51,873 nt of DNA, taken from positions 1 through 51,873 of the forward strand of contig JAAFIA010000026.1 of NCBI GenBank assembly GCA_013298545.1. Reading direction: 5' to 3'. Below the pieces are notes generated by a model. The model saw only the letters and a list, made by a program, of their open reading frames with translations, did not search any database and was not told the origin of the DNA. Of the stretch, positions 27,926 to 35,650 are shown piece after piece. A program made the position numbers and the translations under genes. Each line of letters begins with the position of its first letter. Position 1 is the stretch's first letter. This DNA is from Bacteroidota bacterium (lineage in GTDB: Bacteria; Bacteroidota; Bacteroidia; Palsa-965).

Positions 27926-27945
27926 TTAGTTGATAAATCAACCAT
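27926..27945. repeat. TTAGTTGAT-type palindrome over the rtcB stop codon
   Basis: TTAGTTGATAAATCAACCAT, imperfect palindrome overlapping the rtcB stop. Other copies lie at 30978-30997, 38551-38568 and 47221-47240. Confidence 0.5.
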
Positions 27946-29338
27946 CCATTCGGACAATTTTTGGTGTAAACATACCCAGAACCTCAACCAAATCTTCTTG
28001 CGCACGCATAACGGTATGAATGTCTTTGTACGCTTGCGGAGCTTCATCCGTTCCACCGCCAATCAAGGTTACGCCATGATCTTTGAGCATTGTTTTCAAC
28101 GCATTTGCGGTAACCGCCTGCATCGCTTTAGTTCGCGACATCTGACGACCAGCGCCATGCGAAGCCGATTGAATGGAAGCTACTTCACCTTTCCCACGCA
28201 CAACAAAACCTGGAGCCGTCATCGATCCCGGAATAATTCCGAGAACACCTTTTCCGGCAGGCGTAGCACCTTTGCGGTGAACAATCAATTCGCGTCCATC
28301 GACAATTTCTTTCCACGCAAAGTTGTGGTGATTTTCAATTCGCGCTAAAGGCTCGAAACCAATTGCTTTTGCAATGCGATCGTGAATACGGTGATGACAA
28401 GCCGAAGCATAATCACCCGCCAAGTTCATGGCCGCCCAGTATTCCAAACCTTCTTGCGTATCGAGTGAAAGCCACGCCAAATGTTTTGCCTCTTTTGGAA
28501 GCTGTGTCAACTTCATCGCCAAACGTGTATAATGTCCGGCAATGGTTGCACCCAATCCGCGCGAACCCGAATGCGACAACAACGCCACATATTTTCCTGG
28601 AGCAAGATTCATATCGTTATCGGCATGCAGAATTTCAATCAAACCAAATTCTACAAAATGGTTTCCAGAACCAGAAGTTCCCAACTGACGATACGCTTTG
28701 TTTTGCAGTTCGCGCACCAATGGAATTGTTTTGAATTCGTCGCGTTCAAAAATCGCATGTTCACTACGCTCTTTGATTTCGCCACCCGTTCCAAAATTCG
28801 TGTTGTCGAGCAACGCTTTTTTAAGTGGCGACGCATAACGCGCAAACACCTCTTCCGACATGTCGAAAACAGTCATACACATACGACAACCAATATCAAC
28901 ACCAACACCGTATGGAATCACTGCGTTTTCAGTGGCCAACACACCGCCAATCGGAAGGCCGTAACCTTGATGCGCATCAGGCATCAAAGCTCCTGCAACA
29001 GAAACTGGCAGACGAATGGCAATATCCATTTGCGAACGTGCACCAGCATCGATATGCGCTTCGCCGTAAATCGCATATTCACGCGCTTCGTCAACCAATG
29101 AAAATGTAAGTCCGTCTTGAATTTTTTTACCAATCAAGGCAACCGCAATTTTTCCAAGAAATTCATCTTCCGTAAATGCCTCTGGATTTTCTAAAACTTC
29201 TTTCAAAACCACCAAGGCATCTTCCAACGAATGATGTTTGTAATGCTGATGCATTACTTGAATAGCTACGCCAATGGCTTTGTTTTGTGGGTAACCAATT
29301 TTTCGCAAGTCTTTACCTTGCAGTTTTAATTTAGCCAT
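27938..29338 (-). CDS. rtcB: RNA-splicing/repair ligase RtcB
   Basis: 466 aa. GTP- and Mn-dependent ligase that joins 2',3'-cyclic-phosphate (or 3'-phosphate) and 5'-OH RNA ends, as left by tRNA-cleaving toxins. All signatures are present: MPDAHQGYGLPIGGVLA, GVGVDIGCRMCM (metal Cys), GTSGSGNHFVEFG, HSGSRGLG, ENHHNFAW, IIPGSM and SASHGAGRQMSRT with the His that takes GMP. It is the last gene of the minus-strand unit rsr / tRNA-like array / TPR gene / rtcB. No rtcA cyclase and no RtcR regulator gene is in the window. A 52-codon ORF ends one base before its start. Confidence 0.96.
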   Translation of the reverse strand: MAKLKLQGKDLRKIGYPQNKAIGVAIQVMHQHYKHHSLEDALVVLKEVLENPEAFTEDEFLGKIAVALIGKKIQDGLTFSLVDEAREYAIYGEAHIDAGARSQMDIAIRLPVSVAGALMPDAHQGYGLPIGGVLATENAVIPYGVGVDIGCRMCMTVFDMSEEVFARYASPLKKALLDNTNFGTGGEIKERSEHAIFERDEFKTIPLVRELQNKAYRQLGTSGSGNHFVEFGLIEILHADNDMNLAPGKYVALLSHSGSRGLGATIAGHYTRLAMKLTQLPKEAKHLAWLSLDTQEGLEYWAAMNLAGDYASACHHRIHDRIAKAIGFEPLARIENHHNFAWKEIVDGRELIVHRKGATPAGKGVLGIIPGSMTAPGFVVRGKGEVASIQSASHGAGRQMSRTKAMQAVTANALKTMLKDHGVTLIGGGTDEAPQAYKDIHTVMRAQEDLVEVLGMFTPKIVRMDG

Positions 29339-29668: not shown

Positions 29669-29701
29669 TTGAAACCTCCTTTCTTTTTTATTTTTTGTTT
29701 G

Positions 29702-29785
29702 TGGATGCAGTAAGAATCGAACTTACTCAGCCCGAAGGCACAGGTTTTACAGGCCCGCACGGCTCTCCAGCTCCGTGGTACATCC
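29702..29785 (-). tRNA. tRNA-Tyr(GTA)-like, last element of the array
   Basis: 84 nt. Acceptor GGATGTA/TGCATCC (one wobble), anticodon loop CTGTAAA (GTA), class II variable arm GCC-TTCG-GGC as expected for bacterial tRNA-Tyr, T-loop TTCGATT on a perfect GTAAG/CTTAC stem. The anticodon stem has a C-A mismatch. No CCA encoded. Confidence 0.75.
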
Positions 29786-29831
29786 AAAATGTATTTTGTA
29801 AACGTGTTATGAATACGCATACAAAAACCCT

Positions 29832-29880
29832 CCTCAGCGTTTGAAACGCGGAGGCACGAGATTCGCGTTTGTAACGCGAA
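29832..29880. repeat. Two REP-like hairpins, 3' side of the tRNA array
   Basis: CCTC-A-GCGTT-TGA-AACGC-G-GAGG (29832-29854) and TTCGCGTT-TGT-AACGCGAA (29862-29880). They share the GCGTT-loop-AACGC core with three hairpins at 32481-32636. Confidence 0.6.
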
Positions 29881-30036
29881 AATTCATTTGATTTCAAAAT
29901 CGTATCGCTAGCCTGATACTAATGAATCTCAGAAATGCTTATTTCATCCCAATGAATTGTGAGAAGACTAGATTTTTTGTCAGACAATACTACTTTTTGC
30001 TTTAAGACAAGCATGCAAGCACGATTTAATTTTGTG

Positions 30037-30109
30037 GGGCATCAAGAGGGATTCGAACCCAAAACTCCAGCTTCACAGGCCAGCGTGTTACCATTACACC
30101 AGTGATACC
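30037..30109 (-). tRNA. tRNA-His(GTG)-like
   Basis: 73 nt. Acceptor GGTATCA/TGATGCC, anticodon loop CTGTGAA (GTG), discriminator C as in bacterial tRNA-His, T-loop TTCGAAT. The T-stem is imperfect, and the base before position 1 is T, so the encoded G-1 identity element is missing. 3' flank CAC, no CCA. Confidence 0.75.
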
Positions 30110-30139
30110 ATGATGTTGTGTTTGGCACAACAAAAAATG

Positions 30140-30211
30140 TGGACAAAGCAGGACTCGAACCTACACGCCCCCGTCTTCAGCGGGGCGCTCTACCATTGGA
30201 GCTATTTGTCC
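30140..30211 (-). tRNA. tRNA-Phe(GAA)-like
   Basis: 72 nt. Perfect acceptor GGACAAA/TTTGTCC, D-arm TAGCTCCAATGGTAGAGC, perfect anticodon stem CCCCG/CGGGG with loop CTGAAGA (GAA), T-loop TTCGAGT, discriminator A. The most canonical member together with Asn. No CCA encoded. Confidence 0.85.
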
Positions 30212-30217
30212 TAGTGC

Positions 30218-30294
30218 TGCTGGCCGGAAAGGGCTTTCACCTTTACCGTTCTCGTACGAATGAGCCGCTCTTCTGTTTGAGCTACACGGCCAGC
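30218..30294 (-). ncRNA. Degenerate tRNA-like RNA with perfect acceptor stem
   Basis: 77 nt. Acceptor GCTGGCC/GGCCAGC is perfect, but the D-loop lacks GG, the anticodon loop is 8 nt (ATTCGTAC, CGT if read as Thr) on a 3-bp stem, and the T-loop TGAAAGC departs from TTCRANY. The acceptor is kept while decoding parts are worn, so translation is unlikely. Confidence 0.6.
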
Positions 30295-30298
30295 AATG

Positions 30299-30370
30299 CG
30301 GGAAAAGAAGGGATTGAACCTCCGACATGTTGCTTAACAGGCAACCGCTCTACCACTGAGCTATTTTCCC
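30299..30370 (-). tRNA. tRNA-Asn(GTT)-like
   Basis: 72 nt. Perfect acceptor GGGAAAA/TTTTCCC, D-arm TAGCTCAGTGGTAGAGC, perfect anticodon stem GTTGC/GCAAC with loop CTGTTAA (GTT), T-loop TTCAATC, discriminator G. No CCA encoded; four bases from the previous element. Confidence 0.85.
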
Positions 30371-30395
30371 AAAACAGATGATCTGTTTGATAAAG

Positions 30396-30469
30396 TCGGG
30401 ATGATTGGACTCGAACCAATACGCTCCTGCTTATGAGGCAGGTGATCTTACCAGATGATCTACATCCCA
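30396..30469 (-). tRNA. tRNA-Met(CAT)-like
   Basis: 74 nt. Anticodon stem CCTGC/GCAGG with loop CTCATAA (CAT), D-stem GATC/GATC, T-stem ATTGG/CCAAT with TTCGAGT. The acceptor begins with T (TGGGATG against CATCCCG), unusual for any tRNA. A CAT anticodon could also be Ile2 after lysidine modification. Confidence 0.75.
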
Positions 30470-30489
30470 ATGATGTATTTATTTTTTTG

Positions 30490-30561
30490 TCGGGATAGCT
30501 GGACTCGAACCAGCAGCTTCCGGTTTCCAAAACCGGTGTGCAGCCTTTGCACTTCATCCCG
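30490..30561 (-). tRNA. tRNA-Pro(TGG)-like
   Basis: 72 nt. Acceptor CGGGATG/TATCCCG, D-stem GTGC/GCAC, anticodon stem CCGGT/ACCGG with loop TTTGGAA (TGG), T-stem GCTGG/CCAGC with TTCGAGT. First base C, as in bacterial tRNA-Pro. Positions 8-9 are AA instead of TA. Confidence 0.78.
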
Positions 30562-30620
30562 TTATTTATTATTTCTGCTGCATTTCAAAAATTCGGAAAG
30601 AAACAGATTTTTAATGTGTT

Positions 30621-30693
30621 GACGATCTGGAAGGATTCGCACCCTCGTCTTCAGGTTCGTAGCCCGAGATTCTTCTGCTGAACTACAGATCGT
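30621..30693 (-). tRNA. tRNA-Arg(ACG)-like
   Basis: 73 nt. Perfect acceptor ACGATCT/AGATCGT with unusual first base A, anticodon loop CTACGAA (ACG, the codon box read after A-to-I editing), T-loop TGCGAAT rather than TTCGAAT, discriminator C. The D-loop AGCAGAAGAA lacks the GG pair. Confidence 0.7.
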
Positions 30694-30701
30694 ATAATGT
30701 G

Positions 30702-30775
30702 TTGACCCGGCTGGACTCGAACCAGCAACCCCCGTGTTAAAAGCACGGTGCTCCACGCAATTAAGCTACGGATCA
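30702..30775 (-). tRNA. tRNA-Lys(TTT)-like
   Basis: 74 nt. Acceptor TGATCCG/CGGGTCA, anticodon stem CCGTG/CACGG with loop CTTTTAA (TTT), T-stem GCTGG/CCAGC with TTCGAGT. First base T. The 32 bases at 30700-30731 (3' half and flank) are identical to 30796-30827 in the neighbouring Ile-like element. Confidence 0.78.
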
Positions 30776-30797
30776 GTATGGTGCATTGCTGCACATG

Positions 30798-30870
30798 TTG
30801 ACCCGGCTGGACTCGAACCAGCAACCCTTGTCGTATCAGGACAATGCGCTAACCATTACGCTACAGATCA
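30798..30870 (-). tRNA. tRNA-Ile(GAT)-like
   Basis: 73 nt. Acceptor TGATCTG/CGGGTCA with two wobbles, D-arm TAGCGTAATGGTTAGCGC, perfect anticodon stem TTGTC/GACAA with loop CTGATAC (GAT), T-arm identical to the Lys-like element. First base T. It shares its 3' half with the Lys-like element but not its 5' half: a mosaic. Confidence 0.78.
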
Positions 30871-30977
30871 ATTTTTGTTTTTGATTTATCCATTGATCCA
30901 AAGCCTTAAGCGAACCCTCTTCAACAAGGATCAGATGGAATAATCTTTCGTTTAATCGTTTTCATGTTTTTATTTTA

Positions 30978-30997
30978 TTAGTTGATATATCAACTGA
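30978..30997. repeat. Perfect AGTTGATATATCAACT palindrome inside the tRNA array
   Basis: TTAGTTGATATATCAACTGA; the central 16 bp are a perfect palindrome in the 166-base gap between the Ile-like and Leu-like elements. It resembles MarR-type operators (GTTGA..TCAAC). Confidence 0.5.
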
Positions 30998-31036
30998 TTT
31001 GTTTTTAATCGGTCTGATAAACTCAAACCATTTCAG

Positions 31037-31122
31037 TAAGTCTGGAGGGATTCGAACCCGCACTAGATGGTTTCTAAGACCATTGCCTCTGCTCCCGATA
31101 ACTATCGGGAGGCTACAGACCT
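31037..31122 (-). tRNA. tRNA-Leu(TAG)-like with a hairpin inserted in the D-loop
   Basis: 86 nt. Acceptor AGGTCTG/CAGACTT, anticodon stem ATGGT/ACCAT with loop CTTAGAA (TAG). The variable region is only 5 nt, although genuine tRNA-Leu is class II. The extra length is in the D-arm: GCCT..AGGC encloses a 9-bp hairpin (31092-31111, CTCCCGATA / TATCGGGAG), a palindrome that looks like an inserted short repeat. Confidence 0.7.
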
Positions 31123-31128
31123 ATTTTG

Positions 31129-31215
31129 CGGAGAGCGAAGGAATCGAACCTTCACCGCTGTTACGCGAAACACCTTAGCAGGATGCCCCGACAAGCCAAT
31201 ATCCGGCTGCTCTCC
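31129..31215 (-). tRNA. tRNA-Ser(GCT)-like
   Basis: 87 nt, class II. Perfect acceptor GGAGAGC/GCTCTCC, anticodon loop CTGCTAA (GCT) on a GCATC/GGTGT stem with wobbles, variable arm CGC-GTAACA-GCG, T-stem GAAGG/CCTTC with TTCGATT, discriminator G. Confidence 0.82.
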
Positions 31216-31225
31216 AATTGTTTTG

Positions 31226-31312
31226 CGGAAGGTGAAAGACTCGAACTTTCAACGGTTTTGATACCGACGGCAGTTTTCAAGACTGCTGCATGACCAGTTA
31301 TGCTAACCTTCC
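31226..31312 (-). tRNA. tRNA-Ser(TGA)-like
   Basis: 87 nt, class II. Perfect acceptor GGAAGGT/ACCTTCC, D-stem GCAT/ATGC, perfect anticodon stem GCAGT/ACTGC with loop CTTGAAA (TGA), variable arm CGGT..ACCG, T-stem GAAAG/CTTTC. Discriminator G followed by CAAAA, like the Ser(GCT) neighbour. Confidence 0.82.
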
Positions 31313-31318
31313 ATGGTG

Positions 31319-31389
31319 CGGAGATGAAGGGAATCGAACCCTCTCTACCCGAGAGACAATCGGGCGTTCTACCACTGAACTACACCTCC
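31319..31389 (-). tRNA. tRNA-Asp(GTC)-like
   Basis: 71 nt. Acceptor GGAGGTG/CATCTCC, D-arm TAGTTCAGTGGTAGAAC, perfect anticodon stem CCCGA/TCGGG with loop TTGTCTC (GTC), T-loop TTCGATT, discriminator G. First array element after the TPR gene. Confidence 0.83.
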
Positions 31390-31395
31390 AAAGGC

Positions 31396-31430
31396 GGCGG
31401 CGTTTCGCGCACCGGACCGCACACGCCGCC
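31396..31430 (-). ncRNA. GC-rich hairpin between the TPR gene and tRNA-Asp
   Basis: GGCGGCGT / ACGCCGCC, 8-bp perfect stem with a 19-nt GC-rich loop, in a locally AT-rich context. No T run, so it is more likely an RNA structure (processing or stability) than a terminator. Confidence 0.45.
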
Positions 31431-31485
31431 ACATGCTGATCCTGAATTTGTCATACGAATAGAATCCATAAGTATCCTTTCTTAT

Positions 31486-32001
31486 TTACTGATTAAAACA
31501 ATACGGAAGCTGATCGATTTCTTTATTTCGGATACGGTCGATGGCTTCCTTGGCTTTTTCCGTATCGCGGGCACAGAGTGATTCGCGTTTGGCAAATCGG
31601 TAATGTCGTAGTGCTTCTTCGTACTCGTGTTTTTTTTCAAACGACAAACCGATTTCCAAACCAACACAAGCATTGCATACTTCTGCATGTTTCAATGCCA
31701 GTTCACCGACTTCCAATAAACGCGCGTGTTTCTGTTGTGCGTTTAAGATTTCTAGCAAACTCATGTAAGTCCAACTTAACTGCGGATCGAAACGAAGGGC
31801 AAGTTCCAAGTGTCGTTCGGCTTTCTGCGAATTGCCAAACTCTTCGGAGTGAATCATCGCCAACTCGTAATGCGCTTTCGCGTGAGAAGGTTCTTCTTCC
31901 AGCACTTCTTCCAACAACCGCAACGCTTTTACCGTATTTCCGTAATCGCGTTTTTGCGCTGCTTTCAAGTATTTTTCTTCTATTGAAAGATAGATGTTCA
32001 T
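31486..32001 (-). CDS. TPR protein encoded inside the tRNA-like array
   Basis: 171 aa, cytosolic (no signal peptide). Helix pairs with TPR spacing: VKALRLLEEVLEEEPSHAKA, YELAMIHSEEFGNSQKAERH, LELALRFDPQLSWTYMSLLE, VGLEIGLSFEKKHEYEEALR. Cysteines occur at CNAC and near the C-terminus (YCFNQ). TPR proteins bind other proteins, so it may connect Rsr, RtcB or a tRNA-processing enzyme. Its ATG is 20 bases after the Gln-like element and its end is 96 bases before the Asp-like one, on the same strand as rsr and rtcB, so it is almost certainly co-transcribed with them. No named family is recognised. Confidence 0.8.
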   Translation of the reverse strand: MNIYLSIEEKYLKAAQKRDYGNTVKALRLLEEVLEEEPSHAKAHYELAMIHSEEFGNSQKAERHLELALRFDPQLSWTYMSLLEILNAQQKHARLLEVGELALKHAEVCNACVGLEIGLSFEKKHEYEEALRHYRFAKRESLCARDTEKAKEAIDRIRNKEIDQLPYCFNQ

Positions 32002-32021
32002 TGTTCTGTTTTTTTTAACTG

Positions 32022-32092
32022 ATGCCGGAACAGGTATCGAACCTGTATGCTCAGAATCAAAATCTGATGTCCTACCGTTAGACGACCCGGCA
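32022..32092 (-). tRNA. tRNA-Gln(TTG)-like
   Basis: 71 nt. Acceptor TGCCGGG/TCCGGCA with first base T (bacterial tRNA-Gln often has U1), anticodon stem TCAGA/TCTGA with loop TTTTGAT (TTG), T-stem ACAGG/CCTGT with TTCGATA. The 3' end is 20 bases before the TPR start codon. No CCA encoded. Confidence 0.82.
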
Positions 32093-32098
32093 ATGTTG

Positions 32099-32150
32099 CC
32101 GGATAGCTGTGGCGTTTTTGTTTTTTTGTATTCCGCTACATGTTATCCAG
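32099..32150 (-). ncRNA. Hairpin RNA of tRNA-like length
   Basis: On the minus strand CTGGATA pairs with TATCCGG and, inside, TGTAGCG with CGCCACA (one mismatch), leaving an A-rich loop of ~19 nt. It ends 6 bases before the Gln-like element. It could be a collapsed tRNA whose arms were lost while an acceptor-like stem remains. Confidence 0.4.
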
Positions 32151-32212
32151 TTTGCGGAAAGGTTGTTTATTGAAGTTCATTTTTCGGTTTTTTAAATGCG
32201 TTAATAAATGAA

Positions 32213-32270
32213 GATTGGGCAAAAAGCGAAATGGATTTCTTTGTAATGCTCTACCACTGAGCTACCCGAT
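32213..32270 (-). ncRNA. Truncated tRNA-like RNA (58 nt) with intact D-arm
   Basis: Perfect D-arm TAGCTCAGTGGTAGAGC and an acceptor-like pair ATCGGGT / GCCCAAT, but no recognisable anticodon arm or T-loop; a GAAAT-CC-ATTTC hairpin takes their place. Confidence 0.5.
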
Positions 32271-32278
32271 TGCATACA

Positions 32279-32350
32279 CAACCGGAGCACGACTCGAACG
32301 TGCGACCATTGCATTAGAGTGCGAAGTATTCCATCTCTACGACACCAATC
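32279..32350 (-). ncRNA. Degenerate tRNA-like RNA with 6-nt anticodon loop
   Basis: 72 nt if the acceptor is GATTGGT/TCCGGTT; a 58-nt form starting at 32336 without D-arm pairs equally well. T-arm GCACG-TTCGAGT-CGTGC is perfect. The anticodon hairpin GCA-CTCTAA-TGC has only six loop bases, one fewer than the related Gly element, so it cannot decode normally. Confidence 0.55.
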
Positions 32351-32372
32351 TTTTTTCTGTTGTGAATTGTTG

Positions 32373-32444
32373 AGCAGAACGTGAGAGTCGAACTCACTCC
32401 TTCGCATTGGAAGTGCGCGATGCCGCCATGAACACCTGTTCTGC
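32373..32444 (-). tRNA. tRNA-Gly(TCC)-like
   Basis: 72 nt. Perfect acceptor GCAGAAC/GTTCTGC, anticodon loop CTTCCAA (TCC) with stem GCGCA/TGCGA (one mismatch), perfect T-stem GTGAG/CTCAC with TTCGACT. Discriminator T. The D-arm is weak. Confidence 0.75.
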
Positions 32445-32480
32445 TTGTGTGTGATTTTTTGCGTAGTGCGTGAGGATAAC

Positions 32481-32636
32481 TTCTACGCGTTTGCAACGCG
32501 TAGAAACGAAATTCGTTAGCCTTGGGCTAACAACGCGAAATCAGAAATCATGAAAGGCATAAATTAGTTAAACGAAAAATTCATCTAACGCGCGTTGCAA
32601 ACGCGCTTCTGATGCATACGCGTTGCAAACGCGTAT
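32481..32636. repeat. Cluster of REP-like hairpins inside the tRNA array
   Basis: TTCTACGCGTT-TGC-AACGCGTAGAA (32481-32505, 11 bp), GTTAGCC-TTG-GGCTAAC (32515-32531), GCGCGTT-GCA-AACGCGC (32590-32606) and ATACGCGTT-GCA-AACGCGTAT (32616-32636). The 252-base gap between Gly-like and the next element holds these and little else. Loops TGC and GCA show that copies lie in both orientations. Confidence 0.65.
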
Positions 32637-32696
32637 GAGCCCTTATTCTAACGCACCAAAAAATCATTGAAGTAAAAAGCAGATCTGCTTTCATTT

Positions 32697-32754
32697 GCCG
32701 AAGCAAAGGATGGATTCGAACCATTTGAGCCAGAAGTATCAGATCTATACGACA
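32697..32754 (-). ncRNA. tRNA-like fragment (T-arm plus shared 5' element)
   Basis: T-arm ATGG-TTCGAAT-CCAT is clear and the 5' part is one copy of the ~24-nt shared element, but the anticodon arm and a matching acceptor are absent. Probably a recombined remnant. Confidence 0.4.
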
Positions 32755-32891
32755 TTCAATGAGGTCAAACAAGTTGCGCGTAATGAATGTGTGTATTGTT
32801 GATTTCGTTAAGAGCGAAGAACTACACAACAACGACAGCACAACTTGTAAGTCATTAAAAACAGAGCAACAAAACCATAGCTATTTAATAC

Positions 32892-32968
32892 TATTCCCTA
32901 CCGGAATCGAACCGGCTGCTTGTTCTTTAAAACAAATCGACACCTTATGAAGTCGAAATTTTTGGAAT
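32892..32968 (-). ncRNA. Degenerate tRNA-like RNA with 6-nt anticodon loop
   Basis: 77 nt. T-arm GCCGG-TTCGATT-CCGGT is good, D-stem TCGAC/GTCGA has 5 bp, anticodon stem TTGTT/AACAA is perfect but the loop TTAAAG has six bases. Acceptor ATTCCAA/AGGGAAT pairs at five of seven positions. Confidence 0.5.
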
Positions 32969-33081
32969 TTGAAGTTTTCACTTGAAACTTGAAATTTCTA
33001 CATATCAGGGAGCGAAGTAAGCCATGCTACGACATCTGTTTTATAAATTATACAGCAGCAAAAGCGAGGTGAAGCGGAGAT

Positions 33082-33149
33082 TCTCGTATAGGGATTTGCA
33101 CCCTTCCCGAATGATAACATTCAGGCCCTTCTCCTGGTTGCGACGAAGG
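33082..33149 (-). ncRNA. Degenerate tRNA-like RNA with over-long anticodon stem
   Basis: 68 nt. T-arm AAGGG-TGCAAAT-CCCTA; the central hairpin CCTGAAT-GTTATC-ATTCGGG has 7 bp and a 6-nt loop instead of 5 bp and 7 nt. Acceptor CCTTCGT/ACGAGAA is partial; no canonical D-arm. Confidence 0.45.
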
Positions 33150-33181
33150 AAATCACTTCTACGGCATGCTGTATATTTCAA

Positions 33182-33263
33182 GGTCTCCTCGCCGGGATTC
33201 GAACCCGGAACTTTCATCTAGCAATGAAATCGTCTGACTCTAAATGCGCTTCCCTACTGAGAC
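33182..33263 (-). ncRNA. Degenerate tRNA-like RNA with GCT-like anticodon
   Basis: 82 nt. Strong T-arm CCGGG-TTCGAAT-CCCGG; outer stem GTCTC/GAGAC with two extra bases on the 3' side; central hairpin TTTCA..TGAAA with TTGCTAGA loop (8 nt, GCT if T33 is kept). The D-region is long and irregular. Confidence 0.5.
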
Positions 33264-33317
33264 TTTTGTCAGGTTCGGTGCTTCTGCAAAATCTACCCAT
33301 AACAGCGCGCAGCCGTT

Positions 33318-33387
33318 ACCGGAATATTCAGACTTGACACGGTTCATGAACTTTTTCCGCCGCTTTGCCTTTTAAGCTACGAAGAGG
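33318..33387 (-). ncRNA. tRNA-like remnant with D-arm only
   Basis: A D-arm-like TAGCTTAAAAGGCAAAGC at 33362-33379 (minus) follows CTCTTCG. A T-loop-like TCTGAAT is downstream, but no acceptor closes the element. Boundaries are approximate. Confidence 0.3.
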
Positions 33388-33493
33388 AATGGATGTACTT
33401 GTTTTTTTTCACAACAGTATTTCAAAGAACGAGTTTTACTTTTTAATAATTGGGCAACAGTCGAAAAGTCGATTTTTTTGAACTACATCGCTT

Positions 33494-33565
33494 GCGCGAA
33501 GACGTGATTTGAACACGCATCCTCCAGTTTACGAAACCAGCGTTCTACCGAAGTAATACTTCTCT
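33494..33565 (-). tRNA. tRNA-Thr(CGT)-like, first element after rsr
   Basis: 72 nt. Anticodon stem CTGGT/ACTGG with loop TTCGTAA (CGT), T-stem GCGTG/CACGT with TTCAAAT. Acceptor AGAGAAG/CTTCGCG pairs at five of seven positions and starts with A. The D-arm is shortened to TTC-GGTA-GAA. Confidence 0.6.
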
Positions 33566-33587: not shown

Positions 33588-33623
33588 ATCATTCCCGCGC
33601 ACCTCGCAGCGCGCGGGAGTGAT
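33588..33623 (-). other. Strong hairpin at the rsr stop codon
   Basis: 13-bp inverted repeat ATCATTCCCGCGC / GCGCGGGAGTGAT with one mismatch, overlapping the rsr stop. There is no T run, so it may stop 3' exonucleases or mark the processing boundary between the rsr mRNA and the tRNA-like array. Confidence 0.55.
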
Positions 33624-35143
33624 TACAATTCAATCGATTCAATTGCATCAAGTGTCTGACCACCTGCCTCGATGGATGCAAGCACATCGAAAATTTTATC
33701 AGACCAACCTGCGATGAGAAATACATCGTTCTTGTTGATTTGGAGTGGAGCGTTTCCGTATCCGGCCAAATCAAAAATGTACAACTTCGCTTGTGGTGCG
33801 ATTTTTTTATAATCGGTCCATGCTTTTTGCATCGAGTCGAAACCAATATTGCTGTTCCAGATTTGCGTATCGGTGAAGACAAAAACTTTATCTACTACCC
33901 GACCACGTTGCACCAAATCGCGAACAACTAAATGTCCGTTTGTGGAGTAGCCAACTTCGCCTTCGCGACGGTGAAACTCAAGCACATTCGCAAGTACGTT
34001 TGTTTTTGCAACGGCTATTGTTTTCCAAACATCACCAAACATGCCTACTGCAACATTTTTGCAACGCACTTGCAAAAGCATACCAAGCAAAAGACCGATG
34101 TCGTAATTCTGAATCGTACTTTTTGCGCTGATGTTTCGCTGCATGGATCCTGAAACGTCGCACGCAATAACTACGCGTGTGTTGTTTTCAAAACCAGCAA
34201 TGTTTGCTGCGCTATTCAATGCGGCTACATCAACGGCGGCCATCAATGCTTTGGCTTGTGGCTGAGGCATTTTTGACAATTCGCGGTATGCAGACAAAAA
34301 TCGAAATGGCAATTGCTTTGAACGTTTAACTTGTTCTGCATCGCTAATTTGCGCTGCAAGTTTCAAGATATGATCAAACGAAACGTTTGCTTCAACGATG
34401 TTTCGCATGTTACGAAGCAAGGCCATGTAACCAATTTTTCCGCTATCGATCAACTCTTCCCATTTGTTAGTAAACGCTTTTTGTCGTGCATCAGCTGATT
34501 CAAATTTTTGCTGACCTAAAGCCGACAATTCGGTTTCCCAAGTGTAAGGCGTTGCGAGTGTATCGTTTGCAATTTTGTTGAACAAGTTTTGCTGTGTTTC
34601 GTCTTTCGCTTTTGGGTGAACGAGAAACAAGGCATCGCGAAGTTTAACGGCCGCATCGCGGTTGTATTTTGCAAACTGATATTCATCAAACTTGTTGAAC
34701 GACTGGCGAAGTCCTGATTGAATTTGCTTCGAGAGCTTATTCAGTTTTTTAACTTCTTTGCGTTCGTTGGCCAATTGGTAGTAAGCCAAAAGTTCGGTGA
34801 TTTCATCGGCGCGCTGAACAACACGGCTCGTCAATGTCGAAACAAGATTTGTTCCGCGGTGTACTTTGGCAAGTTCAACGGTCAAGACCAATGGAACAGA
34901 ACGCAAGTACATTTTTTCACGCGCATAAACCGCGAGTTTTGCAACAAATGCTGGATCGTTTTTGGCGACAAGGTTACGAAGACGTTCGAGGCGTTCGCCA
35001 CCGGTTTCGTAAAATTTATCGCTGAGCGTAGTGGTTACCGTTGCTGCATACAAATCGGTTTTAGGATTGTATTGAAATGCTTGCGCGCCTTCGGCATTGG
35101 TAACTTTTTCAGCTTTGTTTCGATTTCGAAGATTGAAGAACAT
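33623..35143 (-). CDS. rsr: Ro60/Rsr orthologue (TROVE + vWA domain RNA-binding protein)
   Basis: 506 aa. The N-terminal TROVE module (~1-330) is a ring of helical repeats that holds misfolded RNA ends and Y RNAs: LERLRNLVAKNDPAFVAKLAVYAREKMYLRSVPLVLTVELA (seen in part), MALLRNMRNIVEANV, LPFRFLSAYRELSK. The C-terminal vWA-like domain (~335-500) has an intact MIDAS DxSxS in ACDVSGSMQ and later FVFTDTQIWN. Bacterial Rsr works with Y RNA and exonucleases in RNA quality control, and in some species sits in an operon with rtcB. Here it heads a minus-strand unit with ~25 tRNA-like RNAs, a TPR protein and RtcB. No gene for PNPase or RtcR is nearby. Confidence 0.93.
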   Translation of the reverse strand: MFFNLRNRNKAEKVTNAEGAQAFQYNPKTDLYAATVTTTLSDKFYETGGERLERLRNLVAKNDPAFVAKLAVYAREKMYLRSVPLVLTVELAKVHRGTNLVSTLTSRVVQRADEITELLAYYQLANERKEVKKLNKLSKQIQSGLRQSFNKFDEYQFAKYNRDAAVKLRDALFLVHPKAKDETQQNLFNKIANDTLATPYTWETELSALGQQKFESADARQKAFTNKWEELIDSGKIGYMALLRNMRNIVEANVSFDHILKLAAQISDAEQVKRSKQLPFRFLSAYRELSKMPQPQAKALMAAVDVAALNSAANIAGFENNTRVVIACDVSGSMQRNISAKSTIQNYDIGLLLGMLLQVRCKNVAVGMFGDVWKTIAVAKTNVLANVLEFHRREGEVGYSTNGHLVVRDLVQRGRVVDKVFVFTDTQIWNSNIGFDSMQKAWTDYKKIAPQAKLYIFDLAGYGNAPLQINKNDVFLIAGWSDKIFDVLASIEAGGQTLDAIESIEL

Positions 35144-35191
35144 GGGATTGTATGTTTAATTTTTTTTGACGATTTTGATTTTTCAGGCCAT

Positions 35192-35229
35192 AAAAAAACC
35201 CGATCTTACTGGATGAGCAGGACCGGGTT
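35192..35229 (-). terminator. Terminator/attenuator hairpin directly before rsr
   Basis: Minus strand: AACCCGGTC, 15-nt loop, GATCGGGTT, then TTTTT. It starts 22 nt after the stop of the 50-aa ORF and ends 48 nt before the rsr ATG. With no clear promoter in between, rsr must be reached by read-through, so this looks like an attenuator. Confidence 0.7.
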
Positions 35230-35251
35230 GGATTTCGGAGGAGAAAAGGAT

Positions 35252-35404
35252 TTAGGTTTTCTCAATCGGAATGAACTCAGTTCCTGAAAAGCGGAGGCGA
35301 TCGCCTGCTTCAATTTGCACAAACGCCATAAACAGCTCGGGCTTGTATGAGCCAGAGTCGGCAGCCTTGTGCCAATAACTGTTTATTCTTGAAAAATTAT
35401 TCAT
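35252..35404 (-). CDS. Small ORF upstream of rsr (50 aa)
   Basis: Product MNNFSRINSYWHKAADSGSY.. ending SGTEFIPIEKT; soluble, mixed charge, protein-like composition. It lies between two terminator-like hairpins in the rsr leader. Its stop is exactly 22 nt before the second hairpin, the same distance as between the 32-aa ORF and the first hairpin. It could be a true small protein of the repair system or a regulatory leader ORF. No family recognised. An in-frame ATG at 35524 would give 90 aa but would read through the first hairpin. Confidence 0.5.
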   Translation of the reverse strand: MNNFSRINSYWHKAADSGSYKPELFMAFVQIEAGDRLRFSGTEFIPIEKT

Positions 35405-35431
35405 GCGGTTGTTTGGTTTTAAAAATTTGGA

Positions 35432-35461
35432 TAAAAAAATACCCGGCTTTTTCGGGCCGGG
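35432..35461 (-). terminator. Terminator/attenuator hairpin in the rsr leader
   Basis: Minus strand: CCCGGC, loop CCGAAAAA, GCCGGG, then TATTTTTTT. It begins 22 nt after the stop of the 32-aa ORF. Confidence 0.75.
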
Positions 35462-35481
35462 CGTGTTATTTATGCTGCAAC

Positions 35482-35497
35482 ATTCATGCGCATGAAT
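35482..35497. repeat. Perfect 16-bp palindrome over the end of the 32-aa ORF
   Basis: ATTCATGCGCATGAAT; the ORF's stop codon lies inside it. As RNA it could form a short hairpin that competes with the terminator downstream; as DNA it could bind a dimeric regulator. Confidence 0.45.
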
Positions 35498-35582
35498 TAC
35501 AATACCGGCCACAGGCACGATCAAAGGGCATATTGCCTAGCTCTGATCTGCGTGCTATTGATTGTTTGCTGTGGCGTAACAT
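35484..35582 (-). CDS. Leader ORF of the rsr unit (32 aa)
   Basis: First ORF after the strong promoter, about 29 nt from the likely transcription start. It begins MLRHSKQSIARRSELG and ends ACGRYCNSCA, with three Cys codons among its last eight. Its stop is 22 nt before a terminator hairpin, the geometry of a leader-peptide attenuator. A role as a translated sensor (ribosome stalling when a tRNA is cut or missing) is inference; it may also be a small Cys-containing protein. Confidence 0.45.
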   Translation of the reverse strand: MLRHSKQSIARRSELGNMPFDRACGRYCNSCA

Positions 35583-35617
35583 GATGTTTTGTTTTTTTAT
35601 TTTCTGTGATTGCGCTG

Positions 35618-35650
35618 CAAAGATATGATCGGATTTTTTAATAAAACAAA
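35618..35650 (-). promoter_or_regulatory. Promoter of the rsr / tRNA-like array / rtcB unit
   Basis: Minus strand TTTG (35647-35650) and TATCTTTG (35618-35625), 21 nt apart: exact boxes of the Bacteroidota consensus. No sigma-54 type GG-N10-GC element, as used in enterobacterial RNA-repair operons, was noticed here. Confidence 0.6.

Follow-up and report, generated by a model that had tools for sequence, protein, structure and literature searches.

Amino-acid attenuators of the trp, his and ilv type share a common plan, in which a short leader ORF is followed by an antiterminator that competes with an intrinsic terminator, and then by the operon itself. In the known leader ORFs of this kind, codons are repeated for whichever amino acid, or few amino acids, the operon produces. 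For Flavobacterium psychrophilum, clues to leader-peptide attenuation at amino-acid operons have been inferred (PMC9723704). Stalled ribosomes are also used by antibiotic-sensing uORFs, where a ribosome stalled on the uORF relieves premature termination; as far as the accessible parts of these reports go (PMC12121999; VmlR, PMC9226507), the targets are resistance or toxin-antitoxin genes, and amino-acid completeness of the uORF is not described there.

Here we analysed a 51,873-nt stretch of Bacteroidota DNA (GCA_013298545.1, contig JAAFIA010000026.1), referred to as the window, in which a leader precedes a tRNA array and RNA-repair genes. This leader resembles the amino-acid attenuators in its plan of leader ORF, antiterminator and terminator, a plan that also occurs at hisG and metY in this genome. 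Unlike them, it samples nearly all 20 amino acids, consists of two serial units and has a tRNA array with RNA-repair genes as its target. Our full-text literature search of open-access papers found no description of such an all-codon attenuator leader. Based on the sequence comparisons below, we propose that the leader is probably a tandem ribosome-mediated transcription attenuator, the two sORFs of which sample almost the whole genetic code so that it would sense almost any tRNA loss.

Leader architecture and downstream operon

On the minus strand, the order of elements is promoter, ORF32, terminator, ORF50, terminator and rsr, and all elements that an earlier sequence-only reading of this DNA had placed ahead of rsr (the promoter at 35618-35650, both sORFs and both terminator hairpins) are present. 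The promoter is of the Bacteroidota type and was recognised by its sequence, with TTTG at 35650-35647 and TATCTTTG at 35625-35618; this motif class, of the form TTTG...TAnnTTTG, recurs ahead of other leaders. The putative first sensor sORF, ORF32 (35484-35582), encodes MLRHSKQSIARRSELGNMPFDRACGRYCNSCA and contains 17 distinct amino acids. It is followed by intrinsic terminator 1 (35441-35462), which reads GCCCGGC, 8 nt and GCCGGGT and is followed by ATTTTTTT with its T tract. The putative second sensor sORF, ORF50 (35252-35404; MNNFSRINSYWHKAADSGSYKPELFMAFVQIEAGDRLRFSGTEFIPIEKT), contains 19 distinct amino acids and precedes intrinsic terminator 2 (35197-35229; AACCCGGTC...GATCGGGTT plus a T tract), in the hairpin of which one pair is G-U and the large loop is itself partly paired. 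Together, ORF32 and ORF50 contain all 20 amino acids, and a Pfam search assigned neither of them to a family. No further TAnnTTTG motif was found within 700 nt upstream of rsr, including 35192-35143, where a separate promoter would speak against an attenuator, and leader and rsr therefore appear to form a single transcript.

Several details of the leader had been singled out by the same reading. The palindrome at the end of ORF32 is real (ATTCATGCGCATGAAT) and spans the stop codon. Three Cys codons were said to lie among the last eight codons of ORF32, but there are actually two, and three are reached only within the last nine. As to the claimed identical spacing of 22 nt between each sORF and its hairpin, the short gap range is conserved, while the gaps themselves are 21 and 22 nt (with the hairpin boundaries used here) and the stop-to-hairpin gaps in relatives are 19-33 nt. 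Exact equality is thus incidental, and it was dropped as a signature.

The downstream unit, also on the minus strand, starts with rsr (33623-35143, ATG at 35143), encoding a Ro60-type protein with TROVE and Ro60 vWA domains (PF05731, PF25045). It continues with an array of 14 tRNA genes (detected by ARAGORN) and degenerate tRNA-like copies (29701-33565), followed by the RNA ligase gene rtcB (27938-29338; PF01139), and thus joins a Ro60-type protein gene and an RtcB ligase gene within one unit. Outside the array, this genome has 38 distinct tRNAs, which make up a full housekeeping set. All 14 array anticodons already occur in that set, the identity of the array tRNAs to it is only 53-75%, and most of them differ from the housekeeping tRNAs near the anticodon or in the anticodon loop. 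Since phage tRNAs with an altered anticodon loop escape host anticodon nucleases, according to one report (PMC10264068), it is a reasonable possibility that the array would serve as a spare, nuclease-resistant tRNA set.

Other sequences were noticed within the array. Degenerate tRNA-like sequences lie on the minus strand of the window at 33494-33565, 30221-30291 and about 33180-33400. The last of these has the stretch GTAGGGAAGCGCATTT in common with the DNA just upstream of rsr in another locus (L012) and possibly represents an additional RNA of the tRNA-like or Y type. A YrlA (Y RNA)-like candidate was found at 32226-32336 on the minus strand (Rfam RF02553, 39.4 bits, E 2.5e-6, which does not reach the gathering score of 69), and another candidate, with a weaker match, lies at 30719-30852, where it overlaps the tRNA genes for Lys and Ile.

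Conservation and amino-acid content of the leaders

For comparison, rsr relatives were drawn from genome and viral collections. Leaders of a like plan head tRNA-array and RNA-repair operons in many Bacteroidota, and many of them are tandem like the one in the window. Of the 31 rsr loci that have three or more tRNA genes, 22 carry a leader, compared with 5 of the 77 loci with fewer (Fisher p 2e-11), and an unfiltered scan of rsr loci gave 19 promoter-sORF-terminator modules, all but one on the rsr strand. Nine loci have at least three tRNA genes and no detected leader; in three or four of them the reason is that the array starts close to where the retrieved sequence ends. The leader comparison suggested by the sequence-only reading showed that ORF and hairpin are kept as a pair in relatives even though their sequences are not. 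Rfam searches of the leaders at seven loci returned no known RNA family, with only tRNAs and one unrelated Flavo-1 as matches.

The leader travels with the array rather than being tied to rsr. In L011, L012 and L056 a divergent WYL-type regulator adjoins rsr and the leader is placed ahead of the tRNA array, while in L158 the leader lies in front of an RNA ligase gene and a tRNA array. At most Flavobacterium loci, rsr-rtcB stands beside a divergent WYL-type regulator and has no leader. Some further features of these loci were recorded. The WYL-type regulator is divergent from rsr in L002-L006, L009, L014-L025 and others, and many such loci have operator-like repeats of the GCGCAA/TTGCGC or TACGCAA type between the two genes. 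Two Flavobacterium loci share a conserved promoter-sORF-terminator module (MILSV...) at +8607 (L024) and +8450 (L032) relative to rsr. A gene for a 432-aa protein lies between leader and tRNA array in L026, L033 and L039, and in L033 and L039 an RNA-ligase-like gene is also found there. The viral contigs L092 and L095-L097 carry an rsr relative and tRNA genes, and no sORF-terminator leader was detected on them.

The amino-acid content of the sORFs was compared over leaders collected by one pipeline. Every ATG sORF of 18-70 codons with a stop 14-38 nt before a terminator was taken, provided that the next feature after the terminator was rsr, a tRNA gene or an RNA-repair gene; amino-acid diversity was no criterion. 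Overlapping frames were merged per terminator and then clustered, which resulted in 35 families. Two probably false calls (L079 and L156) were kept in the tests, which are therefore conservative. The families had a mean of 18.1 distinct residues. The expectation was 16.3 with proteome composition (sum z 8.1), 16.7 when the pooled residues of the leaders themselves served as background (z 6.4) and 16.6 with the composition of control sORFs (z 7.1). The 39 control sORFs obtained with the same pipeline gave a z of -0.9, and the leaders exceeded these controls in completeness (Mann-Whitney p 5e-7). When each sORF's own DNA was shuffled with preservation of dinucleotides, the excess remained (z 8.7). 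The excess is located exclusively upstream of the last ten codons, with a z of 9.4 there versus 0.25 in the last ten, and permutation of residues among leaders gave z values of 8.7 and 0.06 for these two parts. Loci that were fetched after the idea arose, with families resembling earlier ones taken out, provided 16 new families with the same tendency (z 3.7, p 2.5e-4).

Completeness was stronger at loci with tRNA arrays (z 9.0 versus 2.6). Of 20 tandem leaders, 17 cover all 20 amino acids when both sORFs are taken together, where 3.6 such leaders are expected by chance; in one family with few tRNA genes, the second sORF was not clearly above chance in richness. Most leader sORFs of relatives have 17-20 different residues, and most sORF groups stay in this range while the residues themselves change. 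The pN/pS ratios of nine sORF groups were 0.54-0.94, mostly 0.54-0.73. For the window itself the excess is small (ORF32, 17 versus 15.6 expected; ORF50, 19 versus 17.7 expected). The sequence-only reading had drawn attention to the Cys codons and to the equal spacing; the signal would instead be encoded by peptides that cover nearly all amino acids.

The same layout was found elsewhere in this genome. A directed look at hisG revealed a leader peptide with five His residues (MSTMLFTSLHHHHHFFAQAR), separated by 30 nt from a terminator (L169, G000:C114, 1188-1307). Ahead of metY, which we take to encode an O-acetylhomoserine sulfhydrylase judging from the translated sequence, a tandem leader (L133, G000:C77, minus strand, about 5940-5569) has the two sORFs MNKNYNTMCTCMRLFAEGCCICAC and MNLNTPYTTPANIAMMMCCMRFSDGERC, with a terminator after each of them. 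Because the His-rich hisG leader and the Met- and Cys-rich metY leaders carry codons that match their operons, the layout in this genome most likely represents ribosome-mediated transcription attenuation. A trpE family was also sought as a control and was not found in this genome. The genome-wide frequency of the module was estimated from a 600 kb sample, which gave six raw matches versus none in a Markov control; most of the six seem to be ends of longer frames, and one precedes metY.

Predicted antitermination and rival explanations

Over the 35 leaders, duplex energies show that the sORF tail (the last ten codons) pairs with the gap and the 5' arm of the terminator, so that a competing antiterminator is predicted across the set. 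These tail-arm duplexes were more stable than those with dinucleotide-shuffled tails (Wilcoxon p 6e-7) and than those formed with the tails of other leaders (KS p 3e-6), with 18 of 35 in the best tenth. In unit 1 of the window, the antiterminator 5' arm is formed by the last codons of ORF32 (35490-35510, minus strand; GGCCGGTATTGTAATTCATGC, that is GGCCGG-TAT-TGTAATTCATGC), and the 3' arm (35455-35475, minus strand; GCATAAATAACACGCCCGGCC, that is GCATAAATAACACGC-CCGGCC) includes the 5' arm of terminator 1. The duplex of 35510-35490 with 35475-35455 has an energy of -23.8 kcal/mol including flanks versus -13.2 kcal/mol for the terminator 1 hairpin. By the comparative measures, the unit 1 antiterminator is moderate (z -1.9, and a rank of 0.09 in the comparison with swapped leaders) and that of unit 2, competing with terminator 2, is weak (z -1.43). 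The minimum-free-energy fold also places a stem inside ORF32, between GCCACAG in its first codons (35569-35575, minus strand) and CTGTGGC (35514-35508). This stem overlaps the antiterminator arm, and in the model it may act as a protector stem as in classical attenuators.

One family with twelve leaders allowed a deep alignment. Here, one base pair of the terminator stem occurs as A-U, G-C or C-G. Three pairs also covary in a hairpin that lies within sORF1, and none of 500 shuffles reached the covariation score. No covariation was seen for the antiterminator in this family; its positions are always paired and nearly invariant, which makes the alignment uninformative on this point.

The following sequence of events would connect these elements. 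With all tRNAs present, a ribosome would reach the end of the sORF and mask the tail, the terminator would form and transcription would stop. With a tRNA missing, cut or uncharged, the ribosome would stall before the tail; the free tail could then pair with the gap and the terminator 5' arm as antiterminator, and the polymerase would continue past the terminator into rsr, the array of spare tRNA genes and rtcB. The serial arrangement of the two units would correspond to an AND gate, with read-through requiring stalls in both, and such a gate would account for the near-complete amino-acid set in each sORF alone. Fifteen amino acids (ADEFGHIKLMNPQRS) occur in both sensor parts of the window. Since Cys, Thr, Val, Trp and Tyr are absent from one or both of these parts, loss of their tRNAs may go unsensed in the window if both units must switch. 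We infer the translation of the sORFs, the stalling, the switching, the AND logic and tRNA damage as the natural signal from the features described above. The tandem sORF-terminator attenuator postulated by the sequence-only reading, with a stalled ribosome turning on the repair unit and tRNA loss as the signal, is thus supported at the sequence level by the conserved sORF-terminator pair and by the matching codons at hisG and metY. Its idea that the stall prevents hairpin formation agrees with this as far as the stall as switch is concerned; the action would most likely proceed via the sORF-tail antiterminator rather than by the ribosome directly obstructing the hairpin.

Other explanations were weighed against this attenuator. 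Any slow or drug-stalled ribosome might induce the operon, which would make the leader a general translation-inhibition attenuator that was not selected to respond to tRNA loss. The leader layout would indeed answer drugs too, uORFs sensing several ribosome-targeting antibiotics are known (PMC12121999), and in a cyanobacterium, antibiotics that act on translation induce a tRNA operon (PMC10272220). Completeness would be superfluous for drug sensing, however, and the strong excess before the tail would be left unexplained, for which reason we consider this possibility unlikely. Composition also bears on a classical attenuator for a single amino acid, such as cysteine in view of the three Cys codons near the end of ORF32. 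Such attenuators have counterparts at hisG and metY in the same genome, and Cys is present in 86% of leader sORFs versus 32% expected. Yet no single residue recurs in runs in the peptides, Cys is missing from ORF50 and, in ORF32, falls within the tail, and most leaders of relatives combine many different residues, so that this reading has very little probability, and a cysteine attenuator was rejected on peptide composition.

The first module could alternatively be a small RNA gene, for instance for a Y RNA bound by Rsr, that ends at terminator 1 and contains ORF32 as a chance frame. The leader RNA at 35613-35435 has a more stable fold than all 200 dinucleotide shuffles (z -3.65), and Y RNAs are located near rsr in other bacteria (PMC7790460), both of which would fit such a gene. 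What relatives retain is the sORF and terminator and not the RNA sequence, the amino-acid excess and pN/pS values below 1 point to translation, and the YrlA-like candidate sits in the tRNA array rather than in the leader; we regard a small RNA gene as highly improbable. A Y RNA in the leader was discarded as a candidate, with no significant Rfam match there and none to RF02553. The open frames and the pN/pS values would also be expected if the sORFs were functional small proteins with their own terminators that precede the operon by chance. That one architecture extends over 35 sequence families, that ORF32 and ORF50 belong to no Pfam family and that the sORF tails are complementary to the terminators makes this extremely improbable.

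Biological role and related repair operons

We lean towards a still broader interpretation of the tandem attenuator as a general tRNA-pool sensor, in which the all-codon leader peptides and the AND gate would free divergent tRNAs and repair enzymes when phage-defence nucleases or toxins of rivals destroy any tRNA. If true, this would be a simple, RNA-only way of sensing the loss of any tRNA that is coupled directly to genes for tRNA replacement and repair. It makes the induction signal and the role of bacterial tRNA arrays testable, and the codons predict which tRNA losses each leader can sense.

Two described operons are close to this locus in content and differ in their control. The Salmonella rsr-yrlBA-rtcBA operon with RtcR shares Rsr, RtcB and tRNA damage as the signal (PMC7790460), but there the signal is read by a CARF-domain activator, RtcR, which binds tRNA fragments (PMC7790460) and works with sigma-54 rather than through a leader. 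The Anabaena trn operon likewise provides extra tRNAs that are normally silent and induced by translational stress, with rtcB in the regulon (PMC10272220); in contrast to the leader proposed here, it is controlled by the RHH repressor TrcR, and attenuation is not mentioned (PMC10272220).
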